Shown here: positions 8,951-14,589 of the stretch, piece after piece
How the letters are laid out: the number at the start of each line of letters is the position of its first letter
Position numbering within the stretch: the first letter of the stretch is position 1
DNA from: Acidimicrobiales bacterium
GTDB lineage: Bacteria > Actinomycetota > Acidimicrobiia > Acidimicrobiales > VFJN01
Direction of reading: 5' to 3'
DNA length: 35,439 nt
Assembly (NCBI GenBank): GCA_030681555.1
Contig: JAUXRW010000111.1
Location: 1-35,439 of the forward strand
Made by a program: the position numbers and the translations under genes
Notes under the pieces: generated by a model
The model's input: only the letters and a program-made list of their open reading frames with translations
Databases searched by the model: none
Told to the model about the DNA's origin: nothing

Positions 8951-9081
8951 GGGTCCACCGAGCAGGTACCGGCCGGCTCGTGCTGGCGCGTCACCCTGAC
9001 CGGCATGCAGAGCCGTTGGGGCTCTTCACCCCGACCCGCGTCCTCCGGAATGGTCGACACACGACCAACCGATGGGAGCGT

Positions 9082-9119
9082 GGACATGCGGAGATGGACA
9101 GGACATGCGGAGATGGACA
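9082..9119 (+). repeat. Perfect 19-bp tandem duplication across the translation start
   Basis: GGACATGCGGAGATGGACA occurs twice head to tail (9082-9100 and 9101-9119) without a mismatch. Each copy carries an ATG. Because 19 is not a multiple of three, the first ATG (9086) is out of frame with the gene and the second (9105) is in frame. Confidence 0.95.
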
Positions 9120-9572
9120 GTCGGGATCGCAGCAGCGGCGGTGGCGCTCGGAGGCGGGGTAGTGACTGCGCCACCCACCGTCGCCACCCCCGCCCCAGTG
9201 GAGAAGCACTGCATCGTGCACGTCATCGATCGGGCTGCCAGCGGTCGGCTCCGCACGACCGAGCCCGTGTGCTCGGCGAGCCGTGCCGAGGCGGGGGCGC
9301 GCGCAGCGAGCAGCGAAATGATCGGCGTGCACTTCGAGGGGGCGGGCTACACGGGCAGCTCCTTCACCGTGGTGGGCGACGACTGCACGGGCGGGTGGCT
9401 CGACCTGAACGCCGCATGGATCAACCGGGTCTCGTCAACGCTCCACGGGTGCCCGCGGATCCGGCACTTCAACGGGTACGGCCTCACCGGCACGAACCAG
9501 ACGACGATGGCGCCCGGAGCCAACCTCGGGGCACTGAACAACCTGACCAACTCCATCCAGTACCTGCCCTAG
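9105..9572 (+). CDS. Secreted beta/gamma-crystallin-like (I36-type) protein
   Basis: This is a 155-residue protein with a signal peptide ('MRRWTVGIAAAAVALGGGVV', cleaved near residue 30-33). The mature part has four Cys residues and a C-terminal half with 'FEGAGYTGSSFTVVGD', 'LNAAWINRVSSTLHGC' and 'HFNGYGLTGTNQTTM'. That alternation resembles the Greek-key repeats of crystallin-like and I36 peptidase-inhibitor-like secreted proteins of actinobacteria; function is not assured. The start is ambiguous. The good Shine-Dalgarno GGGAG (about 9074-9078) is 7-8 nt before the out-of-frame ATG 9086, while the in-frame ATG 9105 lies 26 nt away because of the 19-bp duplication. ATG 9072 is also in frame but would break the signal peptide. 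Confidence 0.75.
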   Translation: MRRWTVGIAAAAVALGGGVVTAPPTVATPAPVEKHCIVHVIDRAASGRLRTTEPVCSASRAEAGARAASSEMIGVHFEGAGYTGSSFTVVGDDCTGGWLDLNAAWINRVSSTLHGCPRIRHFNGYGLTGTNQTTMAPGANLGALNNLTNSIQYLP

Positions 9573-9582
9573 CGGGGACGAC

Positions 9583-9600
9583 CGGGCGATGTAACGCCCG
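9583..9600. terminator. Hairpin between crystallin-like gene and sigma factor gene
   Basis: CGGGCG and CGCCCG form a perfect 6-bp stem around ATGTAA, 11 bp after the upstream stop. It could end transcription of the secreted protein gene. The loop contains TGTAAC, which resembles ECF -35 elements, so a role in sigma-gene autoregulation is an alternative. Confidence 0.35.
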
Positions 9601-9624
9601 CCGGGCCGCACGCGAAGTACGGGT

Positions 9625-10242
9625 GTGAAGATCCGGCGGGCCGTGCCCACGGCATCCAGCGGCGCCGTGGATCCCGCCGCCGCGGCGAGCAGCGACCTCG
9701 ATGGGTCGCTGCTCGTCCGCGCGCGCACCGACCCGGACGCGTTCCACGCCCTCTACCGCCGCAACCACGACACGTTGCTGCGGCACTTCATGCGGCTCAC
9801 CGGCTCGGCCCACACGTCGGCCGAGCTGGCCGCAGAGACGTTCGCCCAGGCCCTCGCCTGCGTCGATCGCTACGACCCTGCCAAGGGCAACGGCACCGCC
9901 TGGCTGTTCGGGATCGCCAACCACCAGTTCCACTCGTTCCTACGGCGGGGCGACGTCGCCCGCCGGTACCGATCCAGGCTCGGCATCACCACGCCCACCA
10001 CCACCGAGGACGACATCGAGCACATCGAGGCCCTGGCCGACATCGAGGAGTTGCTCCCCCAGCTCAACGCGGCGCTCGCCCAGCTCAGCACCGGCGTGCG
10101 GGCGGCCGTGGAGCTCCGGGTCGGGCACGACCTCCCCTATGCCGAGGTGGCCGCCCGCCTGGGGTGCACGGTGGGCAGCGCGCGGGTGCGGGTGGCGCGC
10201 GGCCTCCGCAGCCTGAACGTCGCGATGCGGGAGGCCGGATGA
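9625..10242 (+). CDS. ECF-type RNA polymerase sigma factor
   Basis: This is a 205-residue sigma-70 family protein with only regions 2 and 4. Region 2 spans about residues 38-108 ('AFHALYRRNHDTLLRHFMRL', 'TAWLFGIANHQFHSFLRR'). Region 4 spans about 145-200, with the helix-turn-helix 'LPYAEVAARLGCTVGSARVRV'. It should direct RNA polymerase to a stress- or envelope-related regulon. The stop overlaps the start of the next gene (ATGA), a layout typical of a sigma factor and its membrane anti-sigma. The GTG at 9625 is the first start; an internal GTG near 9667 would remove only a non-conserved N-terminus. Confidence 0.92.
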   Translation: MKIRRAVPTASSGAVDPAAAASSDLDGSLLVRARTDPDAFHALYRRNHDTLLRHFMRLTGSAHTSAELAAETFAQALACVDRYDPAKGNGTAWLFGIANHQFHSFLRRGDVARRYRSRLGITTPTTTEDDIEHIEALADIEELLPQLNAALAQLSTGVRAAVELRVGHDLPYAEVAARLGCTVGSARVRVARGLRSLNVAMREAG

Positions 10243-11003
10243 GCGCGCCCTTCGTCGACGCCCTCGGCGACGAGTTGCGGGCCGCAGCCACCCGGCGCGT
10301 CGCGGCAGTGGCGAACGGCCGTCGTCGCCGGGCCGGGCGGGCCGGAGCGCTCCTGGCTTCGGGCGCCTTGGGCGCAATCGTGCTCCTCGGGCTGGTCCAC
10401 CCGCCACCGGCGAAGGCCGACGTGCGCGTCGAGCACCTCGGCGGACGCGTCCACGTCACCCTCGTCGACGTCGAGCAGCGCGCCGAGCGGATCGAGGCGG
10501 AGCTGCGGGAGGCAGGCCTCGATGTGTCCGTGGTCGCCGTGCCCGTCGGGCCCTCGGCGGTCGGACGCTTCGTCGGCCACGTGGCCGACCGGCTGCCGCC
10601 GGAGCTCACCATGGTCGACGGTGGGCGGTCCACCTTCGCAGGCTTCTCGGTGCCCGAGGGGTGGGCCGGCCAGCTCGACCTGCAGGTCGGGCGCGTCGCC
10701 CGCGCCGGCGAGACCTATGCGGCGTTCTCCGATGCCCTCGCCCCGGGGGAGCCCCTGCAGTGCACCCAGGTGCTAGGACGCCCGGCCGTCGAGGTCGGCG
10801 CCGAGATCCAGCGACGGGCGCTGGAGCCGGCCTTCCTCGCTGTGGGTGACGGGCCGGCCCTCCGCGTCGATGCCGCCAACCTGCGGGGCAGCGGGCGAGC
10901 CCGCTGGTTCGTGACCGGGGTGGACGCCATCTCGCCGCAGGACCTGCTCGTGCGCATCGGGCCAGAGCCCCCCGCCCCGGCCAGCGAAGACCGCTCGTGC
11001 TGA
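10239..11003 (+). CDS. Single-span membrane protein, probable anti-sigma factor
   Basis: This is a 254-residue protein translationally coupled to the sigma gene (4-bp ATGA overlap). A short cytoplasmic Arg-rich N-terminus ('ELRAAATRRVAAVANGRRRR', about 12-31) is followed by one membrane span at about residues 33-55. An extracytoplasmic domain of about 200 residues has a single Cys in its middle ('LQCTQV') and one at the end. No zinc-binding HxxxCxxC motif of ZAS-type anti-sigma factors is present, so the assignment rests on position and topology. The 3' end overlaps the next gene by 7 bp, making a three-gene operon. Confidence 0.7.
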   Translation: MSAPFVDALGDELRAAATRRVAAVANGRRRRAGRAGALLASGALGAIVLLGLVHPPPAKADVRVEHLGGRVHVTLVDVEQRAERIEAELREAGLDVSVVAVPVGPSAVGRFVGHVADRLPPELTMVDGGRSTFAGFSVPEGWAGQLDLQVGRVARAGETYAAFSDALAPGEPLQCTQVLGRPAVEVGAEIQRRALEPAFLAVGDGPALRVDAANLRGSGRARWFVTGVDAISPQDLLVRIGPEPPAPASEDRSC

Positions 11004-14376: not shown

Positions 14377-14589
14377 ATGGCCAAGACCAACCTCATCACC
14401 GCCCTGACGGCGTCCATCCTCCTGGGGCTCGGTTCCCTGGGCGTCGCCGCCTGCTCCGACGAAGACGGCGACGGTGGCACCACCGACGAGGAGATCGAGG
14501 ACGTCGAGGACACCGTGGACTCCGTGCAGGACGAGGTCGAAGAGGAGATCGACTCCCAGGGCGAGGGCAGCAACGAGGACAACGAGTAG
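14377..14589 (+). CDS. Small acidic lipoprotein
   Basis: This is a 70-residue protein with a lipoprotein signal ('ITALTASILLGLGSLGVAAC', lipidated Cys at about 26). The mature tail of about 45 residues is almost wholly Asp, Glu, Gly, Ser and Val ('EEIEDVEDTVDSVQDEVEEE'), which could form a short amphipathic or coiled helix. The long ORF in this frame begins within the antisense region of the NuoF gene, so the start at 14377 is the sensible one. The function is unknown; an envelope stress or cation-binding role would be speculation. Confidence 0.75.
   Translation: MAKTNLITALTASILLGLGSLGVAACSDEDGDGGTTDEEIEDVEDTVDSVQDEVEEEIDSQGEGSNEDNE

Follow-up and report, generated by a model that had tools for sequence, protein, structure and literature searches.

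A probably recent 19-bp tandem duplication over the start region of a crystallin-like secreted protein gene in an Acidimicrobiales genome, with likely reduced output

Introduction

Reversible tandem duplications have been described in the pneumococcal capsule genes cap3A, cap8E and tts (Waite et al. 2001, 2003, as reported via PMC4243769). In the penA beta-lactamase gene of Burkholderia thailandensis, two-unit duplications revert at 9.3e-7 to 3.6e-5, as given for two alleles (PMC4169377), and the icaC tetranucleotide represents slipped-strand phase variation at a short-repeat contingency locus (PMC4117637). Here we analyse a duplication in a window of 35,439 nucleotides, the whole stretch of DNA under study, from an Acidimicrobiales bacterium (GCA_030681555.1, contig JAUXRW010000111.1). 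The original prediction proposed that a perfect 19-bp duplication had separated a Shine-Dalgarno (SD) site from the start codon of a secreted protein, either as a recent mutation or as an on/off switch. Our results favor an ordinary and recent tandem duplication over the start region of a crystallin-like gene, with an output that is likely reduced rather than zero.

Results

Geometry and rarity of the duplication

The start region contains the following features:

9072..9074, + strand, upstream ATG, in frame with the protein through the duplication, with no SD
9074..9078, + strand, GGGAG, strong SD-like site, 7 nt before ATG1
9082..9100, + strand, copy 1 of GGACATGCGGAGATGGACA, the 19-bp unit
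9086..9088, + strand, ATG1, well spaced from GGGAG (7 nt) and in the wrong frame
9090..9093, + strand, GGAG within copy 1, at 11 nt from ATG2, which could serve as a replacement ribosome-binding site
9101..9119, + strand, copy 2 of GGACATGCGGAGATGGACA, identical to copy 1
9105..9107, + strand, ATG2, in frame with the secreted protein, 26 nt from GGGAG
9105..9572, + strand, 155-aa secreted protein read from ATG2, best read as beta/gamma-crystallin-like (Protein S / inhibitor I36 type)

The two copies lie head to tail with 0 mismatches (period 19, 100% match), and the repeat tract of 9082-9120 consists of two full units plus one extra matching base. Both the duplication and its placement, with GGGAG well spaced only to the out-of-frame first ATG, are thus as originally proposed. 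No other perfect tandem repeat with a unit of at least 8 bp occurs in the 35.4-kb window. In 60 simulated windows generated by a third-order Markov model, perfect tandem duplications with a unit of 13-100 were absent, and offset matches extended to 16 bases at most, versus 20 in the real repeat. Two adjacent copies are therefore present beyond chance. Across a 262-kb sample of the same genome, which covers the window and parts of other contigs, no other perfect tandem duplication with a unit above 12 bp is non-triplet; the remaining ones have units of 15, 18 or 30. There is neither a homopolymer nor a longer repeat array at the start region. Slippage between two TGGACA words in the single-copy sequence was considered as the origin and rejected, since the distance between these words is 14 bp, which would produce a unit of that length rather than one of 19.

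A second non-triplet tandem duplication occurs on the same contig at 14608-14659, with a 26-bp unit and one mismatch, and is intergenic. It lies just 3′ of a short Asp/Glu-rich reading frame resembling a lipoprotein, which ends at 14589.

Ribosome-binding sites and reading frames

Within the 20 nt before each start, the predicted anti-SD duplex reaches -10.9 kcal/mol for ATG1 and -7.3 kcal/mol for ATG2, while the pairing predicted for the ATG at 9072 is -2.7 kcal/mol. The GGAG at 9090-9093, which was overlooked in the original prediction, as was the ATG at 9072, was placed before ATG2 by the duplication itself, and its combination with ATG2 is weaker and more widely spaced than that of GGGAG with ATG1. 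In the sampled genome of this organism, the spacers between SD-like words and first ATGs peak at 6-9, and the excess at spacers of 11-12 is slight at most and comes from few genes.

The frame opened by ATG1 runs for 180 codons, beyond the end of the protein, to a stop at 9626-9628. The ATG2 frame has a G+C by codon position of 0.62/0.58/0.88, as a coding frame in high-G+C DNA should, and the pattern is wrong in the ATG1 frame. The crystallin-like reading frame is otherwise intact. The surroundings of the gene showed neither a sigma-70 promoter-like nor a terminator-like site, and the window gave no Rfam match to an RNA element.

The stop of the ATG1 frame (TGA, 9626-9628) overlaps GTG 9625, a possible start of the downstream sigma factor gene. 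The overlap is probably a coincidence, and it could also allow translational coupling between the ATG1 frame and the sigma gene in the two-copy allele.

The encoded protein

The N-terminus of the 155-aa protein, judged by eye, resembles a signal peptide, and its homologues have the same layout, which supports the proposal of a secreted product. The protein gave no Pfam family match and no I36 match above the curated cut-off, and single-sequence searches of Pfam, NCBIfam and PDB gave nothing useful. A profile built from nine family members matched Myxococcus Protein S (1prr) with an E of 6.5e-6 over profile positions 122-170, and a match to 3hzb (E 0.089) is suggestive at most. Peptidase inhibitor family I36 (PF03995) was matched weakly, by two homologues only (best E 0.014). 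On the basis of the Protein S profile match and these two weak I36 matches, the product is best read as a beta/gamma-crystallin-like secreted protein. A structure model from the single sequence had a pLDDT of 41, too poor for a fold search.

Relatives and ancestral state

Matches to the protein were found in 12 of the 298 genomes of the order, including its own genome, some of the weak ones being spurious. Two loci (L012 and L013) are weak matches to a different gene and were excluded from the homologues, and four others (L003, L010, L011 and L015) are too incomplete to be informative about the start. The best homologue, L004, shares 47% identity over residues 1-142, N-terminus included. The alignments of the homologues to the protein run from ATG2 on, and that of L004 starts at the ATG2 methionine itself, which points to ATG2 as the ancestral start. 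In the relatives whose start could be read, one purine-rich SD stands 5-7 nt before one start codon: the leader is AAGGAG-acctcc-ATG in L004 and GGGAG-cttgcc-ATG in L009, both with a 6-nt spacer, and L017 and L018 have a similar layout. Perfect tandem repeats with units of 10 or more are absent from all nine homologue loci. The relatives thus appear to carry the single-copy state, in a comparison that spans the order rather than one species.

The gene is absent from all three same-genus genomes searched, and no second strain or member of the species carrying the locus was found. A scan of IMG/VR for the single-copy pattern and a scan of GTDB contigs for the start and downstream sequence gave no other allele, both in collections that may omit the source genome. 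Since the relatives have a single SD and start and no repeat, the two-copy state is probably derived, and since the copies are identical, the duplication is probably recent, its age being read from copy identity. We infer both points from the homologues because no close relative carries the gene. The suggestion of a recent mutation is supported by these observations.

Neighboring genes

Two further genes follow on the same strand:

9625..10242, + strand, ECF sigma factor gene (Pfam sigma-70 regions 2 and 4), with an uncertain start codon (GTG 9625, 9643 or 9667)
10239..11003, + strand, third gene, for a protein that apparently spans the membrane once, possibly an anti-sigma-type partner

Together they form a trio (9105-11003) of crystallin-like gene, ECF sigma factor gene and membrane protein gene, whose order is conserved. 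A related sigma gene adjoins the crystallin-like gene in seven loci (L004, L006, L007, L009, L014, L017 and L018), in five of which the third gene was also detected. The arrangement is more informative about the biology of the locus than the duplication is. One genome of the order holds at least four crystallin-like paralogues (L006, L014, L017 and L018), each adjoining an ECF sigma gene, and L006 and L014 of that genome are nearly identical.

The element ATGTAACG lies between the crystallin-like and sigma genes both in the window (9589-9628) and in L004 (1999-2050, reverse strand), and in each the sigma gene starts about 35 nt further downstream. An exact word search did not find it in the other homologue loci. 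It is a possible candidate for an autoregulated ECF promoter, which would give a leaderless sigma mRNA.

Discussion

With good, though not full, confidence we regard the locus as an ordinary recent 19-bp tandem duplication over the start region of a crystallin-like gene, whose output is likely reduced and not zero. In the single-copy ancestor, as judged from the sequence and the layout of the relatives, the spacer between GGGAG and the correct ATG would have been 7 nt. In the two-copy allele the strong SD would send ribosomes mainly to the out-of-frame ATG1, resulting in wasted starts, and a minority of starts would occur at ATG2 with the aid of the copied GGAG, so that the net effect is a predicted lower synthesis of the crystallin-like protein. 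By analogy with published cases, slippage could remove one unit and so return the locus to its ancestral form, spontaneously and at a low rate, as with short tandem duplications in general. If initiation at ATG2 is leaderless or independent of an SD, the duplication could be nearly silent.

The duplication might also have silenced the gene altogether, with ATG1 capturing the ribosomes and the gene being effectively a pseudogene in the source strain. ATG1 now has the best SD and a long open frame that runs past the protein end, and the absence of the gene from the same-genus genomes suggests that it may be dispensable; on the other hand, the remaining gene is intact with a normal codon-position bias, ATG2 has a GGAG 11 nt upstream, and the in-frame ATG at 9072 is available too, so that we regard a null allele as unlikely. 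The same GGAG makes weakened expression likelier than a full loss, and it bears on the proposal that gain or loss of a unit would abolish or restore expression: reversal is possible in principle, but "abolish" is probably too strong, and "probably reduce" would be closer. It is quite unlikely that the true genome has one copy and that the second was introduced by sequencing or assembly. The source is a draft assembly in 162 contigs, with 98.23% completeness and 2.35% contamination, which leaves room for such an error, but a 39-bp tract without a homopolymer is shorter than an ordinary read and would be spanned, making an assembly error unlikely, and the region matches one genome locus only, which gives no indication that a repeat was collapsed or chimeric.

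Two perfect copies of a non-triplet unit, placed over the start codon of a secreted protein, are what a phase-variation (contingency) switch could look like, with one copy being ON, two copies OFF or LOW, and gain and loss of the unit frequent enough for a mixture, kept by selection. Capsule phase variation by reversible duplications in pneumococcus, as related via PMC4243769, and the measured reversion of penA duplications (PMC4169377) lend it plausibility; such reversions show that reversal is possible, which does not make the present site a switch. Against the idea of an on/off switch stand the presence of just two units with neither a homopolymer nor a longer array, the lack of a maintained array at this site in the nine homologue loci, the single known allele, and the decayed second duplication, which, being intergenic, indicates that such events happen here with no gene to switch and suggests untargeted mutation. 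A switch of this kind is accordingly very improbable, and a more specific version, in which a reversible translation start (high with one copy, low with two) yields a mixture relevant to an ECF-sigma-linked envelope response, is remote.

Taken as an ordinary duplication with lowered output, the locus is mainly an annotation issue, with the ATG at 9105 as the probable ancestral start and gene callers that could pick 9072 or the out-of-frame 9086 instead. Provided that the duplication is real and can revert, it would offer a clean natural test of expression loss caused by a displaced SD with a weak substitute.

Comparison with known systems

The protein resembles the bacterial beta/gamma-crystallins, such as Myxococcus Protein S, and I36 (PF03995) in the profile similarity of its family; it differs from them in having no Pfam match of its own, its likeness being one of sequence profile. 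With the pneumococcal capsule genes, as far as the account in PMC4243769 goes, the locus shares a short direct tandem duplication that breaks the frame or expression and can be lost again, whereas duplication and reversion were observed there and the present case is a single allele at a translation start. The penA alleles likewise have a small two-unit duplication, with spontaneous origin and reversion (PMC4169377), but there enzyme specificity was changed under antibiotic selection, while here the unit separates the SD from the start codon. GGACA occurs at both ends of the 19-bp unit, but it does not border the template as in penA TRs 1-3 (PMC4169377). Although icaC-type loci consist of multiple short units and differ between isolates, unlike the two 19-bp units without known variation described here, in both cases the frame is set by the copy number of a repeat whose length is not a multiple of three.
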